From Paludibacter sp. (lineage in GTDB: Bacteria > Bacteroidota > Bacteroidia > Bacteroidales > Paludibacteraceae), in NCBI GenBank assembly GCA_028690665.1, contig JAQVAV010000002.1, positions 62,001-126,000 of the forward strand: a stretch of 64,000 nt of DNA, given 5' to 3'. The notes beneath the pieces were generated by a model. That model saw only the letters and a program-made list of their open reading frames with translations, had not been told where the DNA came from and did no database searches. The position numbers were made by a program, and so were the translations under genes. Below are positions 36,987-60,200 of this stretch, in pieces. The stretch's first letter is position 1; each line of letters opens with the position of its first letter.

Positions 36987-37174
36987 TAAATAAAGCTTTT
37001 TTTGTGTTGATTTGTTACTGTTGACCTTAAATAAATATTTAATGCAAACGTTTGAACCAATAATGCATATTTTTAACATTAAAGAGGGCGTCGTTTGATT
37101 ATAATGTGTTACTTTTGCAGCTGACTGACTATATCTTTTTTATGAAATAATAGTGTTAATTAAAGTATAAGTTT

Positions 37175-40341: not shown

Positions 40342-41268
40342 ATGAGCATTATGAGAACAATCAGTACAAAATTATTTATTTTGCTAATAATAAGTGCTTT
40401 ACCGATGTTGTGCCTAAATAGTCAGGTTAAAGTGGGAACTGTTTTTACGGTAAAGGGAAATACGACAAGTTATTATGATGTAACCTGGCTAATAACATAT
40501 CCAGAAACGTCGAATAGTTTTGATAACGGGTATGATGCCTTTAAAATAAATAGTTCGACTTCAGAAAATGCTCCCAGTATCTATTCGGTAGGCACTGATG
40601 GTATTTACCAGATTCAAACAACTTCAGATGTAAATAATATTGAATTAGGCTTTAATGCCGGAATTGACAGCAGCTATACAATATCCATCACGCAATACGA
40701 TGCTGATTTAGTGTATAATAAATTAGTGCTATTGGATCGAATAACCGGAATTGAAACCGATATTTTAAAAGAGGGAACGACTTATACTTTTTTATCAGAA
40801 AATGGAAGTTCTGTCAATCGGTTTTTAATTTATGCTACAAAACTTGGCGCTGCCGATGAAGTAACAGACTCAACGGAAACAGATGGAGTGGTGGACGAAA
40901 GTGAGGATGTAGATTCTATTCCGGCAAACCCACAACAAGATTCTATTGATACAGAAATTCCGGATTCACTTCCGACTGATAGTGCTATAGATAATCAATC
41001 CGGTAATGCTAAAGATAAATATAAGCATGAAAATAAGGCGAAAAAAGTAAAAATAAAAAAACACGGGCACGAGATAGAAATTGAAAATATAACTAATGAA
41101 AAAGGCTATGTTAATTTGATGGATATTAGAAGAGGGCAAAAAATACAATCACTTGAACTCCCTGCTAACTCGGATATAACAATAGGCAAAAATATAAAAC
41201 AAGGTGCCTATTTGTTGGTCGTAAATATCCGGGACGATATTAGTACAACGAGCATTACAATACAATAA
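40342..41268 (+). CDS. Secreted beta-sandwich protein resembling the C-terminus of the downstream giant
   Basis: A protein of 308 residues with a signal peptide (to about residue 27, CLNSQ; the ATG at 40351 is an equally good start). Residues about 50-165 (NSFDNGYDAFKINSS, IYSVGTDGIYQIQT, VYNKLVLLDRITGIETDIL, TTYTFLSENG) match the pattern near the end of the giant protein at 57226 (EFDNGYDGFKIRGS, LFTVESDGEYQINT, KYDKLYLYDVREN, TQYSFETSD). A linker rich in D, E, S and P follows, then a lysine-rich stretch, and an end (IKQGAYLLVVNIRDDISTTSITIQ) that resembles a degenerate T9SS sorting domain. Function unknown; likely a small surface protein. Confidence 0.78.
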   Translation: MSIMRTISTKLFILLIISALPMLCLNSQVKVGTVFTVKGNTTSYYDVTWLITYPETSNSFDNGYDAFKINSSTSENAPSIYSVGTDGIYQIQTTSDVNNIELGFNAGIDSSYTISITQYDADLVYNKLVLLDRITGIETDILKEGTTYTFLSENGSSVNRFLIYATKLGAADEVTDSTETDGVVDESEDVDSIPANPQQDSIDTEIPDSLPTDSAIDNQSGNAKDKYKHENKAKKVKIKKHGHEIEIENITNEKGYVNLMDIRRGQKIQSLELPANSDITIGKNIKQGAYLLVVNIRDDISTTSITIQ

Positions 41269-41705: not shown

Positions 41706-44700
41706 ATGTTTGTTGCTTACTCCGGTATAATTTATTTTATACTTACATCTTTATTGGTTCTTCTTGCTGTAACAGTACTTATTGTTAAACATAAGTATTC
41801 GTGGAATAAACTCATAATATTTTCTCCGGTAGGTATATCAACTTATCCGGTAATTGCTTTTACCGTCTTATTCCCAGCAATATTCAGTGTGTTTTATTTG
41901 GTTGGAGGATTAGCCGATTATGGTATATTCACTGCATGGATAATCATAATTATAGATGTTGTACTTTTTTTATTTTGGTTTTTATATAATTTCAGACAGT
42001 TAGCAGTTAAATTCAGATATGCCGATCAGTTGAATTCAACATTAATAGAGATATCCCAAAGTACCAAAAATTCTAAAGTAGACGATCTTGATAATAATAT
42101 AAATGCTAATCTGGGTTTGATTGGCCGTTTTCTGGATTACAGAAGAGTATATATTTATATAAAAGATGATAAAAATAAATTATATCATTTGGAGTATCAG
42201 TGGAGTAATCCGGACGATGATACTAATACTACCAATGCTTTAAATAATAATGTATCATACGAAGCTTTTGACGAAAGAGGTGGAAAATGTGACGATGGGC
42301 AAATTGTAGAATTCGTAGTTCAAAACAGTGCCGATAGTCTAAATTTGCCTTTTAGCAATATACCGGTGAAGAGTTTTGTTTTAATTCCGCTATTACAGGC
42401 CGGACAATGTTTGGGATTTATTGGATTTGATACCTACGTTAAAAAACAAAGAATCCAAAAAAGTGAATTAGAAACTCTTAATGCATATTCGGGTATAATT
42501 TCCAGTACTATTTACAGCAAAAAGTCGGAAAAGGAATTTAGTCGGAGCAAAACTTTGTTTGATGATATTGTTAATACAATTCCCGATTTAGTATGGCTTA
42601 AAGATAAAAACGGATTTTATATCACCTGTAACAAAGCTTTTGAGAATTTTTTCGATGTCAGGTTAAGTGAAATCGTTGGTAAATCTGATTATGATTTTCT
42701 GGACCAGGATTATGCAGACTTTTTTAGATTGAGAGATCGTATTGCTATGGAAAATAATCAGCCCACGGTTAATGAAGAATGGGTCGAATCTAAAAACGGA
42801 GGGCATAAAATATATCTTGAAACAATAAAAACTCCTATGTACGATGCAGCTGGAAATTTGATCGGGGTTTTGGGTATTGGACGGGATATAACAGAAAGGC
42901 ATAGAATAAGAAAACTGTTGCAGGAAAGTAATCTCAGACTGGAAAGAGCTGAATTAGCCAGTAATTCAGGAAATTGGGAAATATATGTTGGAAGTGGAAA
43001 AGTGATTGCATCCAAAGGGGCTTGCCGTATATATGGGATTAAGGATACTGAAAATACGTATGAAATGATAAAAAATATTCCTCTCCCCGAGTACCGCATG
43101 TTGTTAGACGAGCAACTGGAGAGTACAATGAGAGATGGAACTGTATATGATGTAAAATTTAAAATAAAAACTTTTGATACAAAAGAAATAAAAGATATAC
43201 ATTCAACGGCCTTCTATGACCCTGATAAGAAAGTATTGTATGGTATCATTACAGATATTACCCGGGAAGAAGCAACCCAAAAATTGCTCAGGGAACAAGA
43301 TGAGAGATTTAAGAATATTTTTCAACGGTCAATCGTTGGTATGTCATTAACTACTATTGATGGAAACTTGAGTGTAAACGAAGCTTTTGTTAAGATGCTC
43401 GGTTATAAAAAATCGGAAATTGAGAATATAAATTGGCGGCAAATAACTTATCCTGAAGATATTGAATACAATGAAATAGTTGTAAAAGATATATTAAACG
43501 GGAAAAAAGATTCAGAGCGTTGGATAAAAAGATATTTTCATAAAAACGGGAATATTGTCTGGGTTGATTTAAGTACTACTGTACATCGGGATGAAAATAA
43601 TAAACCTCTTTATTTTATAACGATATTAGTTGACATAACTAAACAGAAAAATTTCGAAAATCAACTCCGTGAAAGTGAGGGTAAACTAAGAGCTATGTTT
43701 TCGTCGATGACAGAAATGGTTGTGATGCACGAAATGATTTATGACGATGGCGGTAATGCCGTTGATTACCGGATTATTGATTGTAATGAGAGTTTTACTA
43801 AAATTACCGGAATTAAATACGAACAAGCAGTTGGTAAACTTGCGACCGAAGTATATCAGTCGGAGAAAGCCCCTTACATAGATATTTATACAGAAGTGGT
43901 GAAAACTCAGCGACCAAGAGAATATACTGCTTATTACGAACCAATGGATAAGCATTTTATTATTTCGATTGTGTCTCCATCGGAAAATCATTTTGCGACT
44001 ATTACAACTGACATATCGGAAATAAAAACCTATGAGGAACAACTCAAATCGAAGAATTCAGAGCTTGAGAGATATTTGTATGTTGCATCTCATGATTTGC
44101 GTTCTCCGTTAGTAAATATTCAGGGTTTCAGTCTTCGATTGGAAAAACAACTTGAAACAATCAGTGAACTTTATTCAAAAAATAAATCTGTTTTCGAGTC
44201 AAATAAAGAATTATTCGAATTCCCGGAGATAATAACCACAAAGATTCCCAAAACGCTTCATTTTATTCAATCTAATGTTATAAAAATGGATAACCTAATA
44301 TCCAGTTTATTGCAAATTTCGAGGACAGGAAGAGTTGAACTTCATATTGCTAATGTGAATGTAGAAAAATTATTACATACGATTATTACCACAAAAAATT
44401 ATCAGATTTCTGAGTTAAATGCTTCAGTTGTATTTGGAAAAATTGCTGATTGTTATGGGGATGAACAGCAGTTGAACCAACTGTTTTCAAATATAATTGA
44501 TAATGCCCTGAAATATAAGCATCCGGAACGTATCCCTGAAATATGTATATCTTCAACATGTACAATCAACAAAGTTGTTTATTGTATTCAGGATAATGGT
44601 ATTGGAATCAGCGAACGTAATATTAATAAGATTTGGGATGTTTTTTACAGGGTTAATCCAATGAATAATATTCAGGGAGATGGCATTGGACTTAGTCTGG

Positions 44701-44810
44701 CTCAAAGAATTGTGAGTAAGCATAAAGGAAAAATATGGGTTGAATCCCAGTTGGAAGTTGGAAGCAAATTTTATATTGAATTGAATAGAAGCTCTTTTGA
44801 ACCCAATTAG
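41706..44810 (+). CDS. Membrane-bound multi-PAS/GAF sensor histidine kinase
   Basis: A protein of 1034 residues. The N-terminus has about three membrane helices (residues about 6-27, 45-67 and 73-95) without a large periplasmic loop. Then come a GAF-like domain (about 105-270), four PAS units (about 280-397, 405-520, 530-647 and 655-770), the HisKA domain with phospho-His796 in LYVASHDLRSPLVNIQGF, and the ATPase with N, G1 and G2 boxes (NIIDNALKYKH, QDNGIGIS, GDGIGLSLAQRI). It probably senses cytoplasmic or membrane-derived ligands or redox and passes phosphate to a response regulator. The nearest candidate is the single-domain regulator 58 bases downstream. Confidence 0.92.
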   Translation: MFVAYSGIIYFILTSLLVLLAVTVLIVKHKYSWNKLIIFSPVGISTYPVIAFTVLFPAIFSVFYLVGGLADYGIFTAWIIIIIDVVLFLFWFLYNFRQLAVKFRYADQLNSTLIEISQSTKNSKVDDLDNNINANLGLIGRFLDYRRVYIYIKDDKNKLYHLEYQWSNPDDDTNTTNALNNNVSYEAFDERGGKCDDGQIVEFVVQNSADSLNLPFSNIPVKSFVLIPLLQAGQCLGFIGFDTYVKKQRIQKSELETLNAYSGIISSTIYSKKSEKEFSRSKTLFDDIVNTIPDLVWLKDKNGFYITCNKAFENFFDVRLSEIVGKSDYDFLDQDYADFFRLRDRIAMENNQPTVNEEWVESKNGGHKIYLETIKTPMYDAAGNLIGVLGIGRDITERHRIRKLLQESNLRLERAELASNSGNWEIYVGSGKVIASKGACRIYGIKDTENTYEMIKNIPLPEYRMLLDEQLESTMRDGTVYDVKFKIKTFDTKEIKDIHSTAFYDPDKKVLYGIITDITREEATQKLLREQDERFKNIFQRSIVGMSLTTIDGNLSVNEAFVKMLGYKKSEIENINWRQITYPEDIEYNEIVVKDILNGKKDSERWIKRYFHKNGNIVWVDLSTTVHRDENNKPLYFITILVDITKQKNFENQLRESEGKLRAMFSSMTEMVVMHEMIYDDGGNAVDYRIIDCNESFTKITGIKYEQAVGKLATEVYQSEKAPYIDIYTEVVKTQRPREYTAYYEPMDKHFIISIVSPSENHFATITTDISEIKTYEEQLKSKNSELERYLYVASHDLRSPLVNIQGFSLRLEKQLETISELYSKNKSVFESNKELFEFPEIITTKIPKTLHFIQSNVIKMDNLISSLLQISRTGRVELHIANVNVEKLLHTIITTKNYQISELNASVVFGKIADCYGDEQQLNQLFSNIIDNALKYKHPERIPEICISSTCTINKVVYCIQDNGIGISERNINKIWDVFYRVNPMNNIQGDGIGLSLAQRIVSKHKGKIWVESQLEVGSKFYIELNRSSFEPN

Positions 44811-44868
44811 GCGGGTATACGTTTATAAATTATAAATATATTTTAATATTAACCAATACTAGTTTAAA

Positions 44869-45291
44869 ATGAAAGATTTCAAACCAATTGTTATTTTAAT
44901 AGCAGAAGATGATGATGGACATTCTGAATTAATTATTGAAAATTTAATTGATTCCGGAGTAAAAAATAAAATTGAACGGTTCAGCAACGGAAAGGAGTTG
45001 TGGAACTATTTAATTGAGAAAGAAAATAATCGGCATGAAGAAGATTATATTATCCTTTTGGATATAAATATGCCTGTAATGGATGGAATCGAGGTTTTAC
45101 AATTGATAAAATCCAGAGATTCCATGAAAGATATCCCGGTAATTATGCTGACTACAACAGATGACCCACGTGAAATAGACACCTGTTATGAAATAGGTTG
45201 TAATGTGTATATTACTAAACCTGTTGATTTTCATAAATTTATGGAGACACTGATGCGGCTTGGGCTGTTTTTACAGATAATAAAATTATAA
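44869..45291 (+). CDS. Single-domain response regulator (CheY/Rcp1-like)
   Basis: A stand-alone receiver domain of 140 residues. The acid pocket is EDDD (residues 13-16), the phospho-acceptor is Asp65 in LLDINMPVMDG, the Thr/Thr switch is in MLTTTDDP, and Lys117 is in YITKPVD. The fold with IIENLIDSGVKNKIERFSNGKE resembles Rcp1-like regulators that commonly accept phosphate from PAS/GAF phytochrome-type kinases. It has no output domain, so it would act by protein contact or as a phosphate shuttle. It lies 58 bases after the kinase and 17 before the receiver-PAS gene. Confidence 0.93.
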   Translation: MKDFKPIVILIAEDDDGHSELIIENLIDSGVKNKIERFSNGKELWNYLIEKENNRHEEDYIILLDINMPVMDGIEVLQLIKSRDSMKDIPVIMLTTTDDPREIDTCYEIGCNVYITKPVDFHKFMETLMRLGLFLQIIKL

Positions 45292-45308
45292 TTTGAGGCT
45301 GAAACTTT

Positions 45309-47513
45309 ATGACTAAGGAAAAAATACTAATTGTGGAAGATGATGAGGGTTTGAGAGAATTGTTAATTGAAGCTCTTGAAAACTTGGAATATACTTGTTT
45401 AAGTGCCTCCACGGCGAATGAAGCAAAACAATTATGCATTGATTACCAGCCGTTTATGATACTTCTTGATTATCAGCTACCGGATGCTACAGCTAAGGAA
45501 TTTATTGTAGACTTAGAAAATGCAGAGCTGGCTGTTATCCCGCCTTTTGTGTTGACAACCGGTCAGGGTGATGAAAGAATTGCCGTGGAAATGATGAAAC
45601 TTGGAGCGAGAGATTACATCATTAAAGACTCGAGTTTTTTTGAAGTTATTCGTATTGTAATTCCGAAAATAATTCTGGATATCGAAAATGAGCAAAAACT
45701 TAAAAGATCGGAAGAAGCTCTTAGACAAAGCGAAGAAAAATTCCGTGCTATTGTGGAGCAAACAGATGATCTGATTGCAATTTCGGATTCGAAAGGAAAT
45801 GTAATATATGCTTCAACTGCTATTTACAACTTATTTGGCTGGAGTCCTAAGGAAGTATCCGGTATTCCGTTTACAGATATGGTAGATGAAAGCCAGATAA
45901 CGGAAGCCTTTACAGATTTTCAAAATATATTATTTAATGATATTCCATTAAAGGGTAAAGAATTTAAACTTCGTCGGAAAGATGGGAGTTCTTTTTATGG
46001 AGAAATTTTTGGTATCCGGTTTCAACCAGATTCTCTTAACGGGGTTTTGGTAATTATTCATGACGTAACTGAACGAAAAAATTATCTTGAAAAAATAAGA
46101 TTAAGTGAAGAGAAAAGCAGAAAGATTCTGCAAACCGCATTGGATGGTTTTGGGATAATAAATGATAAGCGTGAAATTGTAGAAGTCAATGACAGTATTT
46201 GTAAAATGACCGGGTTTTCGCCGTCAGAATTGTTATCCATGAGAATTGAAGACTTAGATGTCGATGAATCTGTGGAGGATATGGATGCTCATGTTAATAG
46301 TTTAGCGAAGAAAAACTCAGACCGTTTTGAAACGAGGATAAAAAGAAAGGATGGTAGTATTTTCTACGTTGATGTTTCCCTAAATTACATGGAAAGTGCT
46401 TCTTCTAAAGTATTTGCATTTTTAAGAGATATTACAAAACAAAAAGAAACAGAGACATTTTTAAGAACCAGCAAAGAACTGTTACAGAATTTATTGGATA
46501 AAACAAGTTGTTTTATTGAAACTGGAAATGTTGATAATGAGTATGATAATATGTTGAGCTCGATTTGTCAGATAACCGGAGCTCAATATGGATCATTTAA
46601 TTTATATGATGAAAATGGAAGAACTTTTACTACTAAATCATTATACGGACTAGAGCTAGTTATTGATAAACTAACGGCATTAATGGGATTTAACCCTTTA
46701 AATAAGGTTTGGAATTATGATGCGGTCAGGGAAGAAAAAATCAGGGATAGAATTATTACTGAGTTTAAGTCATTCCAGGAGCTTACGGCATTTGCCTTGA
46801 CACAAAAGATTTCGGTCGTGTTGGAAGATACATTCGGCATTGGATCTGTTTATGTAGTCAGGATCGCAAAAAAAAATCATACTGTGGGTGATTTTACATT
46901 GATTTTTAGCCCGGGGAAAAAATTAGAGAACACGGAAATAACAGAATTGTATGTAAACCAGGCGGCTATGTATCTGGAACGTGAAAGTGCCAAGGGAAAA
47001 CTTCAGGAGAGTGAGGAAAAATACAGATATCTGTTTGAATTCAATCCACAACCCATGTATATTTTCGATCAGGAAACCCTTCGGTTTATAGAAGTAAATG
47101 ATGCTATGATTAGACATTATGGATATTCAAAAGAAGAGTTCCTGAAAATGACGCTGAAAGATTTAAAACTACCCGATGATGTTCCGTATTTGTTTGAGCA
47201 GATTGATCAGGCAAACAAAGGAATAAAATATGGACAAGTAAGTCGGCACATATTAAAATCCAAAGAAGTGATAACTATTGAAGTTACCGCTATACCCGTT
47301 TTTTCAAATGGGAGAAAGGCCATGCATTGTATGGTTAATGATATTACAGAAAGAGTAAGAGCAGAATCTGCATTATATCAACAAATGTCTGAAATGACAA
47401 AATTCCATAATCTGACAGTAGACAGGGAGTTGAGAATGATTGAACTTAAAAAAGAAGTGAACAACCTGCTTGTGAACTTGGGGAAAACTGAAAAATATGA
47501 AATAGTTAAATAA
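45309..47513 (+). CDS. Receiver-PAS-PAS-GAF-PAS protein without a kinase domain
   Basis: A protein of 734 residues. It has a receiver domain (about 5-115, Asp54 in MILLDYQLPD), two PAS units (about 140-260 and 270-382), a GAF-like domain (about 390-560), and a third PAS unit (about 570-685). A helical tail ends in LTVDRELRMIELKKEVNNLL, a signature found at the ends of other kinase-less PAS proteins. There is no HisKA, ATPase, GGDEF or HTH domain and no frameshift. It looks like a full-length protein whose role is to relay signal through contact, such as a scaffold or an input-coupling module between the flanking kinases. It lies 14 bases before cheR. Confidence 0.88.
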   Translation: MTKEKILIVEDDEGLRELLIEALENLEYTCLSASTANEAKQLCIDYQPFMILLDYQLPDATAKEFIVDLENAELAVIPPFVLTTGQGDERIAVEMMKLGARDYIIKDSSFFEVIRIVIPKIILDIENEQKLKRSEEALRQSEEKFRAIVEQTDDLIAISDSKGNVIYASTAIYNLFGWSPKEVSGIPFTDMVDESQITEAFTDFQNILFNDIPLKGKEFKLRRKDGSSFYGEIFGIRFQPDSLNGVLVIIHDVTERKNYLEKIRLSEEKSRKILQTALDGFGIINDKREIVEVNDSICKMTGFSPSELLSMRIEDLDVDESVEDMDAHVNSLAKKNSDRFETRIKRKDGSIFYVDVSLNYMESASSKVFAFLRDITKQKETETFLRTSKELLQNLLDKTSCFIETGNVDNEYDNMLSSICQITGAQYGSFNLYDENGRTFTTKSLYGLELVIDKLTALMGFNPLNKVWNYDAVREEKIRDRIITEFKSFQELTAFALTQKISVVLEDTFGIGSVYVVRIAKKNHTVGDFTLIFSPGKKLENTEITELYVNQAAMYLERESAKGKLQESEEKYRYLFEFNPQPMYIFDQETLRFIEVNDAMIRHYGYSKEEFLKMTLKDLKLPDDVPYLFEQIDQANKGIKYGQVSRHILKSKEVITIEVTAIPVFSNGRKAMHCMVNDITERVRAESALYQQMSEMTKFHNLTVDRELRMIELKKEVNNLLVNLGKTEKYEIVK

Positions 47514-47527
47514 AATATCTGAACCAA

Positions 47528-48340
47528 ATGAACAGCCAAAGAATATTAAAATATCTGCTTGAAAAAAGGAATGTTGATTTAAGTGTATATGATGAAAGTT
47601 TTTTAAAAAATGTCGTTGACAGGAGGTTAGAAATTTTAAGCATTGCAGATATTAATGAATACATGAAGTTAATATTTAGAAAAGAAGATGAAATTAATTG
47701 TATTCTTGAATCAATTACGGTTAGTTACAGCGAGTTTTTTAGAAATAGTCTTACATTTGCAGTTCTGGAAAAAATCATTTTACCTCGTTACTTTTCTGAA
47801 AATAAACAGAAGGAATTAATTATCTGGTCTGTTGCCTGTGCAGGTGGACAGGAAGCCTATAGCTTATCTATATTGTTAAATGAGTTGAATGACAGGCTTG
47901 GCAGAGATATTAAATATAGGATATTTGCGTCTGATATTTCAAAAGCTCAGATAAAGAAAGCAATAACTGGTTTTTATAAAATTCATGAACTTGGCAATAT
48001 CAATATTTACACTCTGAATAAGTATTTTCAAAAATATGAAGATGGATATTTTGTAAAAGATTCAATCAAAAAAAATATTGATTTTTCTGTTTTAGATCTA
48101 TTTGACAAAAAGATAACTTGTCCTGCAAATAGTCTTTTTAGTGACTTTGATATAATTATTTGTGCTAATATCTTATTTTATATTAATAAAGCCAAACGGG
48201 CAAAACTAATCGAAAGACTTAGTAACAGTCTGTCTAAGAGTGGTCTGATAATTACAGGAGAAGTCGAACGTGAAATTATACAACAACATAAATTTATTGA
48301 AATCGTGCCGAATTCTGCCATTTTTAAAAGAAAAGAATAA
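47528..48340 (+). CDS. CheR-family protein-glutamate methyltransferase
   Basis: A protein of 270 residues with a CheR N-terminal helical region (NSQRILKYLLEKRNVDLSVY, SYSEFFRNSLTFAVLEKII) and a SAM-binding Rossmann domain (IIWSVACAGGQEAYSLSILL for motif I, FASDISKAQIKKA, the acidic SAM ribose site, and FDIIICANILFYINKAKRAKL). CheR methylates glutamates of chemoreceptors. No CheB methylesterase, CheA, CheW or typical MCP is in the window. The motif I has GGQEAY in place of the usual TGEEPYS, and the CRNVxIYF box is CANILFYI, both common in Bacteroidota homologues. It is joined directly to the hybrid kinase: stop at 48338-48340 and ATG at 48341. Confidence 0.9.
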   Translation: MNSQRILKYLLEKRNVDLSVYDESFLKNVVDRRLEILSIADINEYMKLIFRKEDEINCILESITVSYSEFFRNSLTFAVLEKIILPRYFSENKQKELIIWSVACAGGQEAYSLSILLNELNDRLGRDIKYRIFASDISKAQIKKAITGFYKIHELGNINIYTLNKYFQKYEDGYFVKDSIKKNIDFSVLDLFDKKITCPANSLFSDFDIIICANILFYINKAKRAKLIERLSNSLSKSGLIITGEVEREIIQQHKFIEIVPNSAIFKRKE

Positions 48341-51319
48341 ATGAAACTGAAAGATCTAAGTATTGGGAAACAATTAATTATCAATTTTTCGATAATGTTT
48401 TTAATGGTTATCACGCTTGTAACTGTTTCGTATGTTGAATCGAGCCACGTGAAAATTCACTTTACAACTCTTTATGAACATCCATATCAAATACGAAGAA
48501 CGGTAGCCACGTTACGAAACGATATTTCGGTAATGCGTTTATCATCAAGAGATCTTATGCTGGCCAGTACTCCGGAAGAAACTCAGAAAGCCATAGAAAT
48601 AATGAATATGGCAGATGCGGATGCCCGTATTCAATATGATATAATTACAAGAAATTATTTGGGTTCGCCAGTTGATGTTGATAATGCCTACAAGGCTTTT
48701 CTGAATTGGAATGAAGCAAGAAAAGTAAATACCCAACTTGCTTTGCAAAAAAATGGTATTGAAGAAATAAAGAGAAGCATTCGTGAAGATGGGAAAGTTG
48801 GTCTTTTAAGAGCAGAGATGTTGAAACGTTTAGATGATATTGATGATTTTGCCGAAAAAAAAGGTATTGAAATTTATACTGCTTCCCACAAAATAATAGA
48901 TACTCAATACAATCTATTTTGGATAACAATTTTTTGTTTTATAATTTTGGAAATCATTGTAAATTTAGTTTTACTTAAAAATATACGGAACCCATTAAAA
49001 GTATTGACAAATACAGTGCGGAATTTTAAAAATGGGGATGTTAATGTCCGGTGCGAATATGCTTCTAAAAATGAACTTGGTGTTTTATCCAAATCATTTA
49101 ATGATTTGATTTTGTTTGTAAATAATGACCGTGAATTAAACGAAAAAATGAAAATTCTCAATGAGTCAATGTTAATCACGGAGAATTCACATTCATTTTT
49201 TAAAGAACTCCTGCCAATATTAAATGATTTGACAAATTCACAAATGTCCGCAGTTTATTTGTTGGATGACGATAATCAATATTATTATCACTATGAATCG
49301 GTAGGACTTTCGGAAGATGCCACAAAATTCAAATTCAGGGCAGATACTCAGGAAGGTGAGTTCGGAACAGTGCTCAATACAAAAAAGATTCATCATATTG
49401 CACAAATTCCCATTGATACACAGTTTATATTTCACACAGTAACAGGTAATTATATTCCCCGGGAAATTGTGACGATTCCAATCGTAAGTGGTAAAGATGT
49501 ATTAGCGATAATTTCGCTATCATCCCTCAGAAGATATTCTGAGGTATCGAATACTCTGATTGAGAAAACTTATGATGTTCTTACCGCTCGAATTGAAGGT
49601 ATACTTACATATCGGAGATTGAGGCGCTTTGCTAAAAGGCTTGAAGAGCAAAATTATCTTTTGGATACTCAGAAGTCTGAATTATCGGCTCAATCGATAG
49701 AATTGCTGGAACAAAATTCAGAACTTGAAATTCAAAAAAATCAGCTGAATGAAGTTAGCCGTCTGAAAACGAATTTCCTATCAAATATGAGTCACGAATT
49801 AAGAACTCCACTTAATTCGGTAATTGCCCTCTCGGGTGTGTTGGGACGAAAATTGGTTAATAAAATTCCAGTTGAAGAATATAGCTATATTGAAGTAATC
49901 GAACGAAATGGCAAAAATTTGCTTACTCTGATTAATGATATTCTTGATATTGCAAGAATTGAAGCCGGGCGTGAAGAAATAAATATTCAGAGATTTAATT
50001 TGAATGAATTAATTGTTGAGTTAGGTTCATTGCTGAATCCATTGGCCCAACAAAAGAAAATTAAACTTAAGATTGAGGAATCTCCAACTGAGTCTTTTGT
50101 ACAAAGCGACCCAGATAAAATTCGGCATATTATTCAGAATCTGATAGGCAATGCCATAAAATTTACTGAGAAGGGGGCTGTGACAGTAAAGGTGAACATC
50201 AATCAGGATGGATTTGAGATTGCTGTAATTGATACAGGTATTGGTATAAGTCAGGAACATATTGATTTGATTTTTGATGAGTTTATACAGGAGGATGGAA
50301 GTACTGCCCGCAAATATGGAGGTACGGGTCTTGGATTGTCAATTGCACGGAAATATGCCAATCTGTTAGGAGGAGATATTGAAGTTAAAAGTAAAAAAAA
50401 TAAAGGGTCTGAATTTAAACTAGTTATTCGGGTACAGGAAGAAAAATTGGCAAAAACCAATTATGAAGCTAATGAGTTGAGGTCAAAACATAATGTAGAT
50501 AAATCAGATCTCAATAAAAAATATTTTAATAAAAAGATATTGCTGGTTGAAGACAGTGAACCTTCAGTAATTCAGATAAGGGACTTTCTATCAAAATCAG
50601 GATTCGAAATAGATAATGCGCCCAATGGACAGAAGGCGATTGATAGACTAAAAGAAAAATTGCCGGATGCTATTATTCTTGATTTAATGATGCCTGATGT
50701 TGACGGTTTTCAGTTTTTAAATGAAATAAGGGCAGATGAGCGCACCGCGGAAATTCCGGTTTTGATACTTACAGCCAAGCAAATAACTCATGATGATTTG
50801 GCCGTACTTAAGAAAAATCATGTTCATCAATTAATTCAGAAAGGAGATGTTAAAAGAGATGAATTGCTTCAGGCTGTAATTTCAATGGTGATTGGAAGTA
50901 ATCTTCCTAAGAGCAAGATAACCGAATCAATTGTGAAACCGGTTGATGGAACTTCTAAAACAATTTTAATAGTTGAGGATAATGTTGATAATATGCTTAC
51001 TGTTAAGGCAATTATTGGAGACACTTATAAAACCATTGAAGCTGTAGATGGGAAAGAAGCTATCAGAAAAACAAGTGAATTTTTGCCCGATTTAATATTA
51101 ATGGATCTTTCGTTACCGCTAGTAAGCGGTATTGAGGCTTTTAAAGCTATTCGAAATGATCGTAAAACAAGTCATATCCCGATAATTGCTTTAACCGCCA
51201 GTGCAATGGCTTCTGATAAAGATATTATTTTGCAAATTGGATTTGATGGATATTTGGCAAAGCCAATTAATGAAAAAGTGTTTTTTGAGACTATAAATGT
51301 TACATTAAATGGTAGATAA
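48341..51319 (+). CDS. Hybrid histidine kinase with MCP-like periplasmic four-helix region
   Basis: A protein of 992 residues. Two membrane helices (about 11-31 and 193-213) bracket a helical periplasmic domain of about 160 residues that resembles the four-helix-bundle MCP or CHASE3-type sensors. Then come a HAMP domain (about 213-265), a GAF domain (about 280-425), a coiled coil (430-475), HisKA with His485 in SNMSHELRTPLNSV, the ATPase (about 585-700; NAIKFTE, DTGIGIS, GGTGLGLSIARKY), and two receivers: one with Asp781 in LDLMMPDVDG and one with Asp922 in LMDLSLPLVSG. It overlaps the next gene by 11 bases. The receptor-like sensor and the joined CheR gene suggest methylation control, which is inference. 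Confidence 0.93.
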   Translation: MKLKDLSIGKQLIINFSIMFLMVITLVTVSYVESSHVKIHFTTLYEHPYQIRRTVATLRNDISVMRLSSRDLMLASTPEETQKAIEIMNMADADARIQYDIITRNYLGSPVDVDNAYKAFLNWNEARKVNTQLALQKNGIEEIKRSIREDGKVGLLRAEMLKRLDDIDDFAEKKGIEIYTASHKIIDTQYNLFWITIFCFIILEIIVNLVLLKNIRNPLKVLTNTVRNFKNGDVNVRCEYASKNELGVLSKSFNDLILFVNNDRELNEKMKILNESMLITENSHSFFKELLPILNDLTNSQMSAVYLLDDDNQYYYHYESVGLSEDATKFKFRADTQEGEFGTVLNTKKIHHIAQIPIDTQFIFHTVTGNYIPREIVTIPIVSGKDVLAIISLSSLRRYSEVSNTLIEKTYDVLTARIEGILTYRRLRRFAKRLEEQNYLLDTQKSELSAQSIELLEQNSELEIQKNQLNEVSRLKTNFLSNMSHELRTPLNSVIALSGVLGRKLVNKIPVEEYSYIEVIERNGKNLLTLINDILDIARIEAGREEINIQRFNLNELIVELGSLLNPLAQQKKIKLKIEESPTESFVQSDPDKIRHIIQNLIGNAIKFTEKGAVTVKVNINQDGFEIAVIDTGIGISQEHIDLIFDEFIQEDGSTARKYGGTGLGLSIARKYANLLGGDIEVKSKKNKGSEFKLVIRVQEEKLAKTNYEANELRSKHNVDKSDLNKKYFNKKILLVEDSEPSVIQIRDFLSKSGFEIDNAPNGQKAIDRLKEKLPDAIILDLMMPDVDGFQFLNEIRADERTAEIPVLILTAKQITHDDLAVLKKNHVHQLIQKGDVKRDELLQAVISMVIGSNLPKSKITESIVKPVDGTSKTILIVEDNVDNMLTVKAIIGDTYKTIEAVDGKEAIRKTSEFLPDLILMDLSLPLVSGIEAFKAIRNDRKTSHIPIIALTASAMASDKDIILQIGFDGYLAKPINEKVFFETINVTLNGR

Positions 51320-54300
51320 GCAAAAAATAAAGATTCTCGCCGTAGATGATAATCAGGATAATCTTATAACAATCAAAGCCTTAATTTATGAGGGCTTCCC
51401 GAGCGCAGAAGTCAGTATTGCAACAGATGGATACATTGCGTTCGAAAAGGCTGTTGAGATTATACCAGATGTTATTCTTTTAGATATTATAATGCCAGGT
51501 ATAGATGGCTTTGAAACTTGTAAAAGGATAAAACAACATAAAGAATTATCAGATACTCCGATCATTTTTGTAACAGCCCTTAAAGGAGACAGCGAAAACA
51601 GGGTTAAAGCATTAAATTGTGGAGCTGAGGCTTTTTTATCCAAACCTATTGATTCGAGTGAACTTTATGCTCAAATCAGGGCAATGATGAAAATAAAAAA
51701 GGCAAATACTCAGACTAAAAATGAAAAGGAACGCCTGAAATCACAAGTTGAGGAACGAACAAAAGAACTTAGAAAAACCCATATTGCAACCTTAAATTTA
51801 TTAGAGGATTTAAAAAGGGAAATTGATGCAAGAAAACAAACCGAAGAGGCATTAAAAACGAGTGAGGCCCTTTATCGTTCAGTATTAAATGCCTCTCCTG
51901 ATACAATAACAGTTTCTGACTTAAATGGGAAAATCCGTATGGTATCCAGAAAAGGAGTCGAATTGTTGGGATTTAGTGCCGAAAAAAAAATTATAAATAG
52001 TAATATTTTTGATTTTCTCAGGCCTGAAGATGTTTCCAGAGCTAAAAAAATTTTAGAAAGGTTCTTTAGTGGAGAACAAACGACTTCCTCAAATTTTTTA
52101 ATACGAAAAGCTGATAATACTTATATACACACGGAAATAAATGCAGAATTTATAGAGGAATCAAATGGAAGTTCTGCCGGGTTCGTATTTGTCATCAGGG
52201 ATATCTCAGACAGGATACACGCTCAGGAAAGAATTCGGGAAAGTGAGCGGAAATACAGATTGATAACTGAAAAGATCAGTGACGTTGTTTGGATTATGGA
52301 TTTACACGGGAAAAGCATTTTCGTGTCACAATCTATTGAAAAATTTACCGGTTACACAGTAGAAGAGTATCTTAGACAAACTATTAAAGACAGGTTCACT
52401 CCAGAATCAGGACAGATTGCGCATAAGTCACTACAAACTGAAGTTGAATACTACATTGAAAATCCGGATAAGATTTATAGTTTCAGAAAAATACTTTGCC
52501 TTGATTATTTGTGTAAAGATGGGAGTATAAAAACAGGTGAATTATTAGTTACCCCTTATATAGACAATGGTGAGTTAATAGGTTTGCATGGAGTTACCAG
52601 AGATATAACCGAACGAAAACAAAGTGAACTTGCTCTTGAAGCCAGTGAGAGAAAATACCGGGAACTATTAGACAATTCTCCTGAAGGGATAACAATATAT
52701 GTAAACGGAATGATTGCATATATTAATAATGAGGCTACCCGGATGATGGGAACAAATGACAAAAGTCTACTTTTAGGAAAAACCATCGTTGATTTTATTG
52801 CTCCCGAGAATATAGAATTGGTTCTGGAAAGAATGAAATTCGTAGCGAATGCTCCTTTGAATATGCCTTTGCCGGCGGTTGAGGAAAAATATGTAAGGCT
52901 TGATGGTACTGAATTCTATGTTGAGATAAAACCGATGGTAATAATCTTTGATGGGAAAAAGGCGGTTCAGTTAGCCGGAAGAGACATTACCGAACGGAAA
53001 ATAGCGGAGAGTATTATCAAACGATCGGAAGTAGAGTTTAGAACTGTTTGGGAAAATTCAGCTAATGGGTTGAGGCTGGCCAATGCTAAGGGTCGCATTA
53101 TCCGAGTTAATAATTCATTTGCTAAAATAGTTAACATGTCGGTTGATGATCTGGAAGGTCAATCAGTAAATGATATATATAGTCGTAGTTTTCGCAAAAA
53201 TCTACTGGATGTTTACACTCAACGGTTTGCCGAAGGAAAAATAATTCCCAGTATAGAAAAAGAAGTTCAACTCTGGAATAATAAAAAAATTTGGTTGCAA
53301 ATCGAAAATTCATTTTTAAATATTGAAAATGAAGAGCCGTTATTGCTTTCGATTTTTACCGATATTACCGAAAGAAAAGTTAATGAGTCAAGAGTTAGGC
53401 ATTTAACCCGTTTATATGCCCTGTTGAGTCAGATAAATCAGGCTTTTGTCAGATATCAGAATTTGGATGAATTGTTCCAACGAATTTGTGATATTGCTAT
53501 TGAATATGGAAAATTCAGGATGGCATGGATCGGTCGATACGATTATATCGAAAATAAAATAAGACCATTTTCGTATGCAGGACATGAAGCTGGTTATTTG
53601 AATATTATTAGCGATGTATTAGACAATATTGATCTTTATGATGGGCCCACCGGTTTGGCTATTAAAAAAGGAAAACTTGTATTTAGCAGTGATATTGCGA
53701 ATGATGTTAATCTAGAACGATGGAAAGATGAAGCATTGAATAGAGGTTATTTGTCCGCAGTATCAGTACCTTTGATTAGAAATGGGAAAATATATGGTAC
53801 CTTAAATCTTTATGCGTCAGAACAGGACTTTTTTGACGAAGATGAACAGAAGCTCTTGGTTGAGATTGGAGAAGATGTTTCATTTGCAATAACGGCATTG
53901 GATGCTGAAGAAGAGAGAAAGAAAACAGAAGAGGCATTGATTGAGAGCGAAAATAGGTATAATACATTCATAAATAATAATGTAGATATGATATTTGTGA
54001 AAGATGAAAACCTGAGATACCTTATCGCCAATGACGCCCTGGCCAAATTTTTCAAACAACCAATTGAAAATATAATATTTAAAACAGATGATGAACTTGG
54101 TTCTAATAATATAATTAAACCCTGTAAATCAACTGATATAAAAGCGTTAAGTTCCGATCGTCCGGTAAGTAGCATTGAAGTCTTAGACGGCAGATATTAT
54201 GAATCGACAAAATTTCGGATGCCATTGAAAAACGGAAAGTTTGGGGTTGGAGGAATACTTCATGATATAACTGAACGCAGAGAATCGGAAATAGCATTAG

Positions 54301-55793
54301 AGGAGAGCCGACTTGAGTTAAAAACTATTTATGATAACGCACCGGTAATGATGTGCGTGTTGTCGGAGAATGAGAAAGTTCTATTTACAAATGATGCATT
54401 CAGAGAATATGTTAATCTACCTGGTGACCTGATTGAGGGGAAGCGTTTTGGTGATATTGTAGTTTGTATTGAGTCGTTAAAAAAGGGTTGTGGTAATGGT
54501 GCTTATTGTAAAAAATGCGTACTAAATACTGCTATTAAAAGTACGTTTAGAGAACAATCAGGAAAGCAGAATATTGAATATCATGCTCGTATCATAGATA
54601 ATGGTATAGAAAAAGAGGTGTATTTGTTAGGCTCAACTGCATTAATAGACTATAATGCAGATAAAAAACTATTATTATGTTTGTATGATATTACGGGAAG
54701 GAAGACGATAGAAAAAGCTTTAGAGAAAAGCGAGATGTTTTTAAGAACATTTATCGATAATGCTCCTTTCCAGATATGGTCAAGAGATCGGAATAATGTA
54801 GGAATTCTTGAAAATAAAATGCTAAAAGACCGATTTGGATCAATTCTTAATAAGGATATTTATCAACTTACTCATATAACAGAAGAGCAAAAGAAAATAT
54901 GGATTGACATGAATGAGCGAGTTTTTAATGGGGAAATTATAGATGAAGAATTAGAATTTTATACTAAAGAAAAGAAAATAAATTTTCATCAATTGATTTT
55001 TCCGATTAAGGTTAATAATAACATAGAGGCAATCGCCGGATTTAATATTGATATTACTGAAAGAATCAAACAACAACAGATACTGAAAGAATCGCAGGAG
55101 CAATTAAAGCAGTTTGCTGCGCATTTGCAAAATATCAGGGAGGAGGAAAGGGTTGTTCTCGCACGTGAGATTCACGATGATTTGGGACAAATACTTGTTG
55201 CTGTAAAAATGGATCTTGGAATGCTAGGTCTGAAATCTCAGAAATTTATAAAAGAAGAAGCTGCTGGTGAATTTATGGAACAATTTAAGCGTGTTTCGGG
55301 TATGGTTGATAATACAATTAAAACAGCACGTAGAATTATGACAAACCTCAGACCTGAGGTGCTTGATTTATTGGGACTTATAGAAACATTACGGTCTCAT
55401 GTATCATCTTTTGCTGAACGATACCAGATTGATGCTAAATTCGAGACGAATATTGATAAATTCAATATGGAAAATCAAAACTCCGTTGCTATATTTAGAA
55501 TTGTTCAGGAGTCACTAAACAATGTTGCAAAGCACGCAAAAGCAAGTAAGGTACTAGTGTCTTTAAATAAACATAAAAGTTGTATCTTATTGAAGATAAA
55601 GGATAATGGTGTCGGGTTTGATACAACTAATAAACGGAAATTTGATTCATTCGGTCTGATGGGCATGAACGAAAGGGCTTATTTATTAGACGCTGATTTC
55701 GTTATCGAAAGTAAACCGGGGGTAGGTACCGAAGTAAGGCTTTCTATTCCAATCTCAAAAATAGATAATCAATCGGATACTCATAACAAATAG
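51309..55793 (+). CDS. Giant receiver/multi-PAS/GAF NarL-type histidine kinase
   Basis: A soluble protein of 1494 residues, encoded with an 11-base overlap with the previous gene. It has a receiver (about 7-127, Asp59 in LLDIIMPGIDG), a coiled coil (135-185), four PAS units (about 185-305, 312-436, 445-563 and 570-690), a GAF domain (698-865), and three more PAS units (878-990, 1000-1130 and 1140-1252). It ends in a HisKA_3 domain with His1289 in AREIHDDLGQ and a NarX-type ATPase (NVAKHA, DNGVGFD, GLMGMNERA). The sixth PAS unit holds a cysteine cluster, Cys1053, Cys1061, Cys1067 and Cys1070, that may bind metal. Its likely partner is the NarL-type regulator encoded 266 bases downstream. Confidence 0.93.
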   Translation: MVDKQKIKILAVDDNQDNLITIKALIYEGFPSAEVSIATDGYIAFEKAVEIIPDVILLDIIMPGIDGFETCKRIKQHKELSDTPIIFVTALKGDSENRVKALNCGAEAFLSKPIDSSELYAQIRAMMKIKKANTQTKNEKERLKSQVEERTKELRKTHIATLNLLEDLKREIDARKQTEEALKTSEALYRSVLNASPDTITVSDLNGKIRMVSRKGVELLGFSAEKKIINSNIFDFLRPEDVSRAKKILERFFSGEQTTSSNFLIRKADNTYIHTEINAEFIEESNGSSAGFVFVIRDISDRIHAQERIRESERKYRLITEKISDVVWIMDLHGKSIFVSQSIEKFTGYTVEEYLRQTIKDRFTPESGQIAHKSLQTEVEYYIENPDKIYSFRKILCLDYLCKDGSIKTGELLVTPYIDNGELIGLHGVTRDITERKQSELALEASERKYRELLDNSPEGITIYVNGMIAYINNEATRMMGTNDKSLLLGKTIVDFIAPENIELVLERMKFVANAPLNMPLPAVEEKYVRLDGTEFYVEIKPMVIIFDGKKAVQLAGRDITERKIAESIIKRSEVEFRTVWENSANGLRLANAKGRIIRVNNSFAKIVNMSVDDLEGQSVNDIYSRSFRKNLLDVYTQRFAEGKIIPSIEKEVQLWNNKKIWLQIENSFLNIENEEPLLLSIFTDITERKVNESRVRHLTRLYALLSQINQAFVRYQNLDELFQRICDIAIEYGKFRMAWIGRYDYIENKIRPFSYAGHEAGYLNIISDVLDNIDLYDGPTGLAIKKGKLVFSSDIANDVNLERWKDEALNRGYLSAVSVPLIRNGKIYGTLNLYASEQDFFDEDEQKLLVEIGEDVSFAITALDAEEERKKTEEALIESENRYNTFINNNVDMIFVKDENLRYLIANDALAKFFKQPIENIIFKTDDELGSNNIIKPCKSTDIKALSSDRPVSSIEVLDGRYYESTKFRMPLKNGKFGVGGILHDITERRESEIALEESRLELKTIYDNAPVMMCVLSENEKVLFTNDAFREYVNLPGDLIEGKRFGDIVVCIESLKKGCGNGAYCKKCVLNTAIKSTFREQSGKQNIEYHARIIDNGIEKEVYLLGSTALIDYNADKKLLLCLYDITGRKTIEKALEKSEMFLRTFIDNAPFQIWSRDRNNVGILENKMLKDRFGSILNKDIYQLTHITEEQKKIWIDMNERVFNGEIIDEELEFYTKEKKINFHQLIFPIKVNNNIEAIAGFNIDITERIKQQQILKESQEQLKQFAAHLQNIREEERVVLAREIHDDLGQILVAVKMDLGMLGLKSQKFIKEEAAGEFMEQFKRVSGMVDNTIKTARRIMTNLRPEVLDLLGLIETLRSHVSSFAERYQIDAKFETNIDKFNMENQNSVAIFRIVQESLNNVAKHAKASKVLVSLNKHKSCILLKIKDNGVGFDTTNKRKFDSFGLMGMNERAYLLDADFVIESKPGVGTEVRLSIPISKIDNQSDTHNK

Positions 55794-55919
55794 ATGTTTT
55801 CTGAAATAAGAACTACCATTTGTATGTTTCTATATTTCGATGTGGATTCTAAGGTGTGAGATAACTATATAAGTGAAACACTATTGGATTAATAATACTA
55901 ATTTATTAATAAGATAGTA

Positions 55920-55949
55920 TTTGTCTTTATGGATTATTTGTTACATTTG
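55920..55949 (+). promoter_or_regulatory. Promoter of the NarL/LuxR regulator gene
   Basis: TTTG (55920-55923) is followed after 18 bases by TACATTTG (55942-55949), a good match to the Bacteroidota consensus, about 110 bases before the ATG. It gives the DNA-binding regulator a transcription start separate from the kinase operon. Confidence 0.65.
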
Positions 55950-56059
55950 CATAATTAATCTGTTTAAAATCGGATTGTTAATTTGTATTTTGTTATTTTT
56001 AAAGTTAACGAACTATTGTTAGGAGCTTTGCTGATTATCAAATAATTATATAGCTTATT

Positions 56060-56692
56060 ATGATAAAAGTATTTATTGTCGATGACCATGAAATTATCCG
56101 GGAAGGATTGAAAATGATCTTAAAAGAGGCTCCGGATCTCCTCGTTGTAGGTGAAGCTCAGGATGGACTAGAAGCCTTAAAACGGTTGAAAACTACAGAA
56201 TGTGATGTGCTGTTGCTGGATATGAATATGCCAGGAAGAAGTGGTATTGAACTGTTATCTGATATTAAGGCTTTAAAACCGAAATTGCATGTGCTTGTTT
56301 TGAGTATTCATCCTGAAGATAAATTTGCCTTGAAAACATTAAAAGCGGGGGCATCTGGGTATTTATGTAAAGATACGGCTTTAGAGGAGCTGGTCATTGC
56401 TATCAGAAAAATTTACTCAAAAGGTAGATATATAAGTACAACCTTAGCCGAGCAATTGGCTTTTGATGTTATACCGGATAATGAATCTCAACCACATGAA
56501 CTGCTATCTGCCCGTGAACGTGAAATTCTTATAAAGATTGCATCTGGAATTAAAGCGAAAGATATTGCGGCTGAGTTAGGACTCAGCATCAGTACGGTTT
56601 TTACCTACAGATTACGTATTTTTGAGAAATTAAATGTAAAGAATAATGTTGAACTAACACATTATGCAATCAGTAATAAATTGGTAGGTTAA
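56060..56692 (+). CDS. NarL/FixJ-type response regulator
   Basis: A DNA-binding regulator of 210 residues. The receiver domain has the acid pair in FIVDDHEIIREGLKMIL, phospho-Asp54 in LLLDMNMPGRSG and Lys in SGYLCKDTALEEL. The LuxR/GerE helix-turn-helix at about 145-207 reads LSAREREILIKIASGIKAKDIAAELGLSISTVFTYRLRIFEKL. This is the classic partner for NarX-type HisKA_3 kinases such as the preceding 1494-residue protein. It is separated from that gene by 266 bases and has its own promoter. A terminator follows. Its target is not evident; the neighbouring giant surface protein is one candidate. Confidence 0.95.
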   Translation: MIKVFIVDDHEIIREGLKMILKEAPDLLVVGEAQDGLEALKRLKTTECDVLLLDMNMPGRSGIELLSDIKALKPKLHVLVLSIHPEDKFALKTLKAGASGYLCKDTALEELVIAIRKIYSKGRYISTTLAEQLAFDVIPDNESQPHELLSAREREILIKIASGIKAKDIAAELGLSISTVFTYRLRIFEKLNVKNNVELTHYAISNKLVG

Positions 56693-56716
56693 TTTAGTAT
56701 TCTTATATAAGACTTA

Positions 56717-56748
56717 GAAAAGAGTGTCCGGTTGGATACTCTTTTTTT
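56717..56748 (+). terminator. Terminator after the NarL/LuxR regulator gene
   Basis: A 12-base-pair stem with one G-T pair (AAAAGAGTGTCC with GGATACTCTTTT), a loop of 3 bases, then T residues, 25 bases after the regulator stop. It separates regulatory genes from the giant gene. Confidence 0.85.
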
Positions 56749-57225: not shown

Positions 57226-60200
57226 ATGAGATGTATATTTAGGTATTTTGCATTATGGACTGAGTTGCAGAAAAAAAATATATATACCTGTGTATTAAGA
57301 TTTTTATTTGTTCTGTTTCCTCTGATAACCATTTCTGAAACTTATGCGCAGATAAGTTTAGTTGGAAGTGTACAATCAGGGTATGTAGCAAATTCTTCTA
57401 CAATATCAATAAGCAAACCTTCTGGAATTCAGCCGGGGGATGTAATGATTATTAATCTTATTAAACACCGAAGTGGGGATGCTTCAGCACCTACACTTAC
57501 CGGCTGGAATGTTATATCGGGGGGACTCAGCGGAACTACAGATTATATAGGAGCCGTTTTGTACCGAGTTGCGGATGGTACGGAAGGAACTTCATTTACA
57601 ATTAATTTATCCAATAATTCAAGTGTTGATTATGCTGTTGGGGCCCTGAGTGTATATACAGGGGTCGACAGAGTTAATCCGTTTGATATTTCTCCAGGAA
57701 GTATAGCTACAGGAAATAGTACAGGTACCTCCTTGTCAAATGTTTCTTCAATAACTACTCAAACTGCCGAAGCTTATGTGATATTGATGGGGATGAGCTA
57801 CAAAGCAAAAGCGAATAGTACACCAAGTACATTAACTATGTCTGTGACTAATTTGTCTACGAAAAGTGTGTATAATATATCCGGTACTCGTTACGTTTCA
57901 GTAGGATGTGTAGCCGGAACTTTGTCCAATGCTGGTGCTACTGGTTATGGAGTAATCTCAGTAAATAAGACTTCATATTTTGGTGGCATTTTACTTGCAT
58001 TACGTCCCCAGAAAATATTCAGATCTATAAATTCCGGAAACTGGAATGAAATTTCAACGTGGCAACAATCCACAGATGTTGGTTCAACATGGTCTAATGC
58101 AACTTCATTTCCAAATGAGAATGATGGATTAGTTACAATTCAATCCGGTCATGTTGTTTCCTTAATAGAACCTGCTACTTGTAGTAATTTGACATTGTAT
58201 GGAACATTAAATATGAATTCATTTGTTCTTACGGGTACAGACACTTTAATTTCAAATTCAGGGAGTAGTATAAATATCGCCGGAATAAATAATTTTCCAT
58301 CAGGATTTGGTTCTGTTGATTTAAATGAATCAAGTACGGTTAATTATGTTGGGGCAACTCAAACTATATCCCCTCAAACATACGGAAATATTACATTTGC
58401 AGCAGGAACTAAAAATTTATCCGGAGAAACATTTATAAATGGGGCTCTGACTATCAATGCCGGGGTTTTGATAAAACTTGGATCGAACAACCTGACTCTT
58501 GGAAGTTCTTCTCCTGCAATATCAGGAACAACTCAGGCGGATGCAATGATTGTTGCTGATGATACTGGAGAACTGCGAAAACAATTTGCTTCCACCGGAA
58601 GCTATACATTCCCGATTGGAGATAATGCTGATGGAACAGCCAATTATACTCCGTTGACTGTAGTTTTTACCTCTGGGACTTTTGGTGCAGGGGCATATAT
58701 TGGAGTAAAGTTAACAGATGCCAAACAGCCACAAAACATCAGTCAGAATAATTATCTTACAAGATACTGGAGTGTCAGTCAGTCTGGAATAAGTTCATTT
58801 ACAGCCAATATCTCAGCTCTTTATGATTCAGCAGATGATGTTGTTGGTGATCCTTCTTTACAGTACGTTGGTTTGTATTCAAATGGAAGTTGGTTTGCCT
58901 ATTCTCCATTGTCAGATGGATTTACCGCAACTGATATTACAGATTTTGGTGATTTTACAGGAATTTCATTACCTGTTGTCAGCACAAATGTATCATCCGT
59001 ATCTGATTTGAGTTATAATTATGGATATGGTCCTTCTTTGTCACAATCTATTACAATATCGGGAGTTGATTTAGAAGATGATATAGTTATAGTCCCGCCG
59101 GACAACTATGAGATATCTCTTACCGACACAACGGGATTCCAATCAACTCGGCTTACAATTCCGCAGTCGGGAAGAAGTGTAAATGCTGTAAATATATTTG
59201 TTCGCTTAAAAGAGGGGCTGGAGGCTGGGAATTATAATGTGAATATGGAAATAACTTCAACAGGGGCAACAACGAATATAGTTTCTTTGTCTGGTTCTGT
59301 AGCATTACCCGTAGATTACTGTAGTATGTCCGGAAATACAACGTATGAAACGAGTATTACCTCTGTGTCTCTGAATACTTTATTGCAATTAAGTGCAAAA
59401 CCTTCTGGCTACAGTGATTTCACTACAATTTCGACGGACGTTTATAAAGGACAAACATATAATCTTAATGTTAAGGTAAATACTGACGGTAATTATCAGG
59501 TTTATACATGTGCCTGGATTGACTGGAATCACGATGGTGATTTTTCAGATGACGGCGAATATTATGACCTCGGCAGTGCCACAAATACGGCTGATGGATT
59601 AACATCTGCCTCTCCGTGTGCTATTGTTATTCCTATAAATGCTATTTGGGGAACTGTAATTATGAGAATTGCAACTCGGTATAGTCAATACCCAACACTA
59701 TGTGAAACTAACTTTGATGGTGAAGTTGAAGATTACTCTCTGAATATTGTGAAGCCGACAATTACAACCGGTAACATTAGTGGTTCGCCGTTTGCTGCAG
59801 GAGACACTGTAAATGTGCCGTTTACTGTTGACGGTTCGTTTATAGATAGTAATCTGTTTACTTTACAGCTCTCTGATACTCACGGAGATTTTTCATCTCC
59901 TGTAAATATTGGCACATTATCCGGTATAAGTAGTGCAAGTATTCAGGGAAGTATTCCTGTAAATACGTCAACTGGTACCGGCTACAGAATGAGAGTGATT
60001 GGGAATAACCCTGTAATAACTGGGACAGATAACTGGGCCGATATTGTTATCAATGAACTAAGTGGTGTTTATATGTCACCTTCTGCGTTGTCTGGATTTA
60101 CTTATCAGGAAAATCTTGGGCCATCCGATATTCAGAGTTTTACTGCATCTGGCTATTCTTTAAATTCGAATCTCAGATTAGAACTTGTAAATAATAATTT

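Follow-up and report, generated by a model that had tools for sequence, protein, structure and literature searches.

The subject of this analysis is a compact signalling locus of Paludibacter sp. (NCBI GenBank assembly GCA_028690665.1), contained in a 64,000-nucleotide stretch of contig JAQVAV010000002.1 (positions 62,001 to 126,000 of the forward strand) that is referred to below as the window. The source genome amounts to 4.05 Mb in 29 contigs and is 99.9% complete. Seven signalling genes, here called A to G, follow one another on the plus strand (Table 1), separated by 58, 17, 14, 0, -11 and 266 bases; a recheck of the open reading frame (ORF) coordinates returned exactly the strand and spacings given in an initial annotation of the window. 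Its domain tally of about 15 PAS or GAF units, five receivers plus one receiver-HTH and three kinase cores was reproduced, at 15 units, using Pfam complemented by profiles of our own, and the CheR methyltransferase and kinase-less PAS protein that it listed are given by Pfam as D and C (receiver, or REC, followed by three PAS units). Sensor kinase A has an N-terminus that appears hydrophobic by eye and the domain order GAF-PASx4-HisKA-HATPase (Pfam and own profiles); its HisKA scores 21.5 bits against a Pfam cut-off of 26.9, yet the H, N and G box strings were found, the H-box reading SHDLRSP. Hybrid kinase E is arranged as 4HB_MCP-HAMP-GAF-coiled coil-HisKA-HATPase-REC-REC, and F consists of a REC, five PAS and one GAF unit, and a HisKA_3-HATPase core. 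Phospho-acceptor and kinase-box strings were located in the seven proteins.

Table 1. Features of the seven-gene locus, in window coordinates
Feature	Position	Strand	Basis
A, sensor kinase, 1034 aa	41706..44810	+	ORF list, Pfam, own profiles
B, single-domain response regulator (REC), 140 aa	44869..45291	+	Pfam
C, REC-PASx3 without kinase, 734 aa	45309..47513	+	Pfam
D, orphan CheR-type protein-glutamate methyltransferase (predicted), proposed RsbM-like, 270 aa	47528..48340	+	Pfam CheR 3.5e-42
E, hybrid kinase, proposed RsbK-like, 992 aa	48341..51319	+	Pfam, own profiles
E heptad coiled coil, about residues 436-472, proposed methyl-accepting helix	49646..49756	+	Q..EL repeats
F, REC-multiPAS/GAF-HisKA_3 kinase, 1494 aa	51309..55793	+	Pfam, own profiles
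Promoter-like site TTTG-N18-TACATTTG, Bacteroidota-type, 5' of G	55920..55949	+	weak
G, NarL/UvrY-type response regulator (REC-GerE), 210 aa	56060..56692	+	Pfam
Terminator-like hairpin 3' of G	56716..56747	+	

Of central interest is D, which belongs to the CheR superfamily by domain, fold and core motifs. All six of its sequence matches in the PDB and the first 10 fold matches are CheRs, and the core CheR residues are invariant in 13 rows of the alignment (A1) with which relatives were sought. The chemotaxis CheRs of Salmonella (1AF7) and B. subtilis (5FTW) have fold and core motifs in common with D, but D has 'CAN' where the 'CRN' motif stands. In a tree of 106 CheRs, for which the bootstrap had not settled, 90 including that of the window form a single clade with support of 100/99; outside it stand a group of 10, L195, L197 and the CheRs of four other sets. 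A CheR is usually taken for an enzyme of chemotaxis. The remaining elements of a chemotaxis methylation system, namely the signalling domain of methyl-accepting chemotaxis proteins (MCPs), CheW and CheB, gave no match in the window genome, where CheA was not searched for and where D is the only CheR match. Among 41 genomes that carry either this CheR or E, some of them incomplete (G009, G160, G179 and G339 included), there is no CheB match in 14 (four of these being 60-86% complete), no MCP match (E 1e-3) in 24 and neither in 13, one of which, G015, is a single contig at 99% completeness. A gene containing CheB lies upstream of the CheR in seven of the 85 loci described below, as a CheB-CheR fusion in six of them, and demethylation may be possible in such CheB-bearing genomes and loci.

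A scan of genome contigs with the single protein found no relatives; a search with alignment A1 did recover them. From 193 confirmed relatives the 80 best were taken as named loci, a choice that biases the tallies toward near kin, and annotation covered these 80 together with 12 same-genus regions and 8 regions with other CheRs, the domain calls on loci being made with our own profiles, seeded on proteins of the window and the loci, rather than with Pfam. Removal of eight repeated contigs (L056, L069, L070, L076, L078, L093, L124 and L125, of which L056, L078 and L124 repeat contigs of G019, G004 and G017) left a final set of 85 loci of the window's CheR family, the window itself counted. In 80 of them an E lies downstream of the CheR on the same strand, as the next gene or within three, with its kinase domain in view in 69. 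In four of the five loci with no E (L064, L111, L118 and L128) the contig runs out, in L118 and L128 after a small PDDEXK_3 gene; the fifth, L067 from a MAG labelled Ignavibacteriales, clearly departs from the CheR-E order. A REC-first gene corresponding to F then follows E in 61 of 65 judgeable loci (41 with HisKA, 11 with HisKA_3, 9 cut or other), and E is the last gene of the set in L074, L089, L109 and L114.

The same picture came from a separate order sample of 393 genomes, in which E-type was scored on at most three candidates per genome (threshold E < 1e-90) and CheR on at most six: E-type is present in 29, with a CheR on the same strand within about 4 kb in 26, and the remaining three (G187, G191 and G254) are interrupted by the end of a contig. 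Within the genus, 12 of the 23 other genomes contain a near relative of the CheR (E < 1e-50); of the order sample's five genomes from the same family but from other genera, none gave a CheR match at 1e-20. Hosts of the named loci include Bacteroidales, Prolixibacteraceae and Lutibacter, and six further phyla are represented by the labels of metagenome-assembled genomes (MAGs), namely Ignavibacteriales, Neomarinimicrobiota, Delongbacteria, Lentisphaeria, Geobacteraceae and Nitrospirae, although labels of single contigs may be wrong. Plasmid CheR matches came to 567 records; among the 12 matches listed, four regions were examined by annotation, and in these four no CheR lay beside an E-type kinase and none yielded an RsbM. 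The initial annotation had proposed gene order in relatives as a check on whether the genes belong together: rather than being scattered or randomly combined, the CheR-E-F core recurs across Bacteroidota and MAGs labelled as six other phyla, and in L077 (Paludibacter sp. STB_36) all seven genes are matched in order at 31-64% identity over the aligned parts. Since the gene set keeps its order in relatives, the locus is a conserved set and not a chance pile-up.

The stretch of E between GAF and HisKA contains heptads in which Q and L recur at core spacing and a Glu precedes the L; the coil was read from these heptads rather than from a coil-prediction program. The window's coil has Glu at 447, 454 and 461, and also at 457, 463 and 471; across 65 of 71 E rows (six with inserted or longer linkers were left out), Glu at 440, 447, 454 and 461 is conserved in 62, 64, 61 and 62, respectively. 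Runs of three or more EL heptads occur in 63 of 81 E-type kinases and, among the 80 other kinases that these loci encode, in 4; three of the four (L123, L191 and L197) are E-type kinases missed by the labelling. In the group of 10 CheRs, where one or two PAS genes often stand between CheR and E, the coil reads as EEL..Q repeats of varying number. Glu-rich EEL repeats are found also in the CheB-CheR fusions and in CheR-CheB-linked hybrids of L044 and L051, loci whose further hybrids are without them. A NWETF-type tail is present in none of the 71 E proteins.

The initial annotation knew of no described system with this content, and so overlooked the RsbM/RsbK pair of B. cereus. According to PMC4574943, RsbM is an orphan methyltransferase with no cognate esterase, encoded in the same operon as RsbK, a kinase of the architecture CHASE3-HAMP-GAF-S-helix-HK-CA-REC, which it represses by methylating the S-helix between GAF and HisKA; 127 RsbK-like kinases in 10 phyla are reported there, and the genomic association of RsbK with CheR is cited in PMC12848376. 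The window locus resembles this pair in three respects: a CheR-type methyltransferase gene adjoins a hybrid kinase gene; in E an extracytoplasmic helical sensor is followed by HAMP, GAF, coil, HisKA, HATPase and REC, as in the membrane kinase RsbK; and a cognate methylesterase is apparently lacking, the genome having no CheB match. The methylated residues of RsbK are reportedly E439 and E446, although E439 appears in neither PMC4574943 nor PMC12848376. There are also differences, in that the sensor of E scores as 4HB_MCP_1 and not CHASE3, E carries two RECs, the genes that follow are F (a REC-PASn kinase) and G, where B. cereus has the RsbY phosphatase and sigma-B, genes A, B and C are added, and the host belongs to the Bacteroidota. 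As the RsbY/sigma-B output is absent, the locus would work like RsbM/RsbK without being a sigma-B Rsb system.

Other known arrangements share less, or other, parts of the locus. Methyl-accepting coiled-coil (MAC) proteins are kinases that adjoin CheR. MAC1/MAC2, a class named in MiST 3.0 (PMC6943060), would by its name comprise coiled-coil methyl acceptors outside the MCPs, as E may be. The CheR-CheB-hybrid kinase sets and CheB-CheR-PAS fusions resemble the window in that proteins with Glu-rich EEL heptads adjoin a CheR or are joined to one (L044, L051 and the fusions), but the sets carry CheB, and the CheRs of L044, L050 and L051 fall outside the window's clade of 90. With NarX/NarL pairs the locus has in common the HisKA_3 core of F and the REC-GerE of G; F differs by the REC and the six PAS/GAF units that precede this core, and both proteins lie below the NCBIfam cut-offs for NarX and NarL. 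A literature search of partial coverage gave no study that we recognised as treating this Bacteroidota locus. Given the RsbM/RsbK precedent and the MAC class, the kind of mechanism is already known, and the Bacteroidota wiring (F, G, A-B and C) would be a variant of it.

These observations support, at a probability of about 0.68, the reading of the locus as a sensor-kinase module of the RsbM/RsbK type, controlled by methylation and provided with further inputs and an output of its own. D probably methylates E: it would use S-adenosylmethionine to place methyl groups on glutamates of the heptad coil between GAF and HisKA, and the neutralisation of coil charge would set the E kinase. For B. cereus it has been proposed that the helix, once methylated, recruits the REC and so holds the kinase off; by analogy, we see repression of E as an even chance. 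The 4HB/HAMP/GAF sensor would release the kinase, and active E would then phosphorylate the two RECs that it carries and also the REC at the N-terminus of F, the latter transfer being one on which we would place equal odds either way. This REC of F would gate the HisKA_3 kinase of F, which fairly likely passes phosphate to the DNA-binding regulator G. Transfer from A to B is put at a similar, better than even, level; the kinase-receiver pair A-B and the kinase-less C would add inputs or a scaffold, which is the least certain step, the role of C in particular being tentative. Since the genome has no CheB match, methylation is probably slow or one-way in the window genome, fixing a set point rather than serving chemotactic adaptation.

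Several points weigh against this reading. The window's CheR sits on a long branch (1.24 in the 106-CheR tree), and 27 of the 41 related genomes do contain a CheB. The likeness to RsbM/RsbK comes from architecture and gene order, and the E to F to G transfer is drawn from gene order. As for the coil, position 440 is a Leu and not a Glu in the window's E; none of the 71 E proteins contains the classical MCP methylation consensus; the Glu conserved at one heptad position may be mere coiled-coil salt bridging; and, the E coils being homologous, the 63 of 81 vs. 4 of 80 do not count independent events. The hybrid kinase of L050 adjoins a CheR and a CheB and is without the repeats, so neighbours of CheR need not carry them.

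The initial annotation took the locus for a dedicated phosphorelay ending in the NarL-type regulator, which as a rival to methylation control would have A, E and F pass phosphate through RECs to G, the CheR being a passenger or scaffold. The REC aspartates and kinase boxes are present, F carries a HisKA_3, and in each of the four loci with a NarL-type gene (the window, L035, L036 and L077) F is of the HisKA_3 type. A multi-step His-Asp-His-Asp relay, however, calls for an Hpt, and the Pfam results of the seven proteins contain none (no search for Hpt was made elsewhere in the genome); the CheR, to which that proposal gives no role, is a steady neighbour of E with invariant core residues, which does not suit a passenger. 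What stands of the proposal is the conserved set, and we consider a pure relay unlikely. Marginally less likely still is that the CheR acts on another target, be it the tail of C, F, or a protein encoded elsewhere. A conserved tail closes the C-type protein directly 5' of the CheR in 44 of the 85 loci, and seven of its eight best-scoring places in the 393 genomes are directly 5' of a CheR; against this, no tail precedes the CheR in the other 41 loci (partly because of contig starts), the tail is found in 21 genomes with no E-type at the threshold used, and an MCP to serve as target has no match in the window genome. A degraded chemotaxis pathway, with the CheR left as a relic after its partners were lost, would account for the missing CheB, CheW and MCP matches and for the long branch, but the CheR-E pair is widely conserved, also in genomes with MCP and CheB matches, and the well-supported clade of 90 CheRs includes the window's; we regard this as highly improbable.

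If E is the substrate of this CheR, protein methylation would be a general control of two-component kinases, of which B. cereus offers the one case known to us: in the window genome a CheR with no MCP or CheB match is nonetheless order-locked to one kinase family across Bacteroidota and beyond. That glutamate methylation of kinases by orphan CheRs, independent of CheB, MCP and chemotaxis array, is a widespread control layer in Bacteroidota seems to us possible, at a little under even odds. In that event CheR-E-F would be a co-inherited unit to which lineages attach differing PAS inputs and outputs, and the number and charge of the Q..EL heptads in the coil would form a tunable one-way set point. 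The unit is small, recurrent and of three genes, and so is directly testable.

A, B, C and G look like optional additions to the core. Of the 85 loci, 44 showed a C-type gene, 15 a B, 12 an A and four a NarL-type G; these are minimum counts, many of the loci lying close to the end of a contig. A-B-C stand together upstream of the CheR in 12. B, 60-63% identical in L033, L034 and L041, is the probable partner of A. The 266-base gap and the weak promoter-like site, which fits the Bacteroidota-type consensus (11 such sites in the window vs. 5.77 expected), suggest that G may be a transcription unit of its own, not co-transcribed with A to F. The proposal of a single system of all seven genes is supported for the CheR-E-F core and is less secure for the remainder. 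The tail of C (..TVxRELxMIELKKEVNxLL..KYxIV, 47382-47510) is strongly conserved at the extreme C-terminus; the count of 44 in 85 comes from a relaxed pattern, a stricter one giving 9 of 60. We considered this tail as a CheR-specific tether and rejected it, as only 14 of the 35 genomes with the tail (of 393) have an E-type kinase.

Some smaller observations concern the core genes and the surroundings. In the MAG of L041/L124 (G017) the reading frames of both CheR and E are broken into several pieces, through either sequencing error or decay. A small GxxExxY-type gene stands directly 3' of the CheR in L035, L066, L101, L103, L118 and L128, identified as Pfam PDDEXK_3 in L118 and L128, the two that were scanned; these genes fall by eye into at least two sequence subgroups, and the pattern resembles recurrent insertion into a single type of site. 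The window locus is bracketed by genes for secreted-looking proteins (40342-41268 and 57226-63999) sharing a domain (37% over 123 aa), the second being a giant protein with a GEVED domain that runs past the end of the window. A relative lies just 5' of the locus in L043 and another near a different CheR match in L021; the bracketing pair may be targets. Farther 5', at 35340-39739, are genes for glycogen synthase and a DUF3417/phosphorylase.

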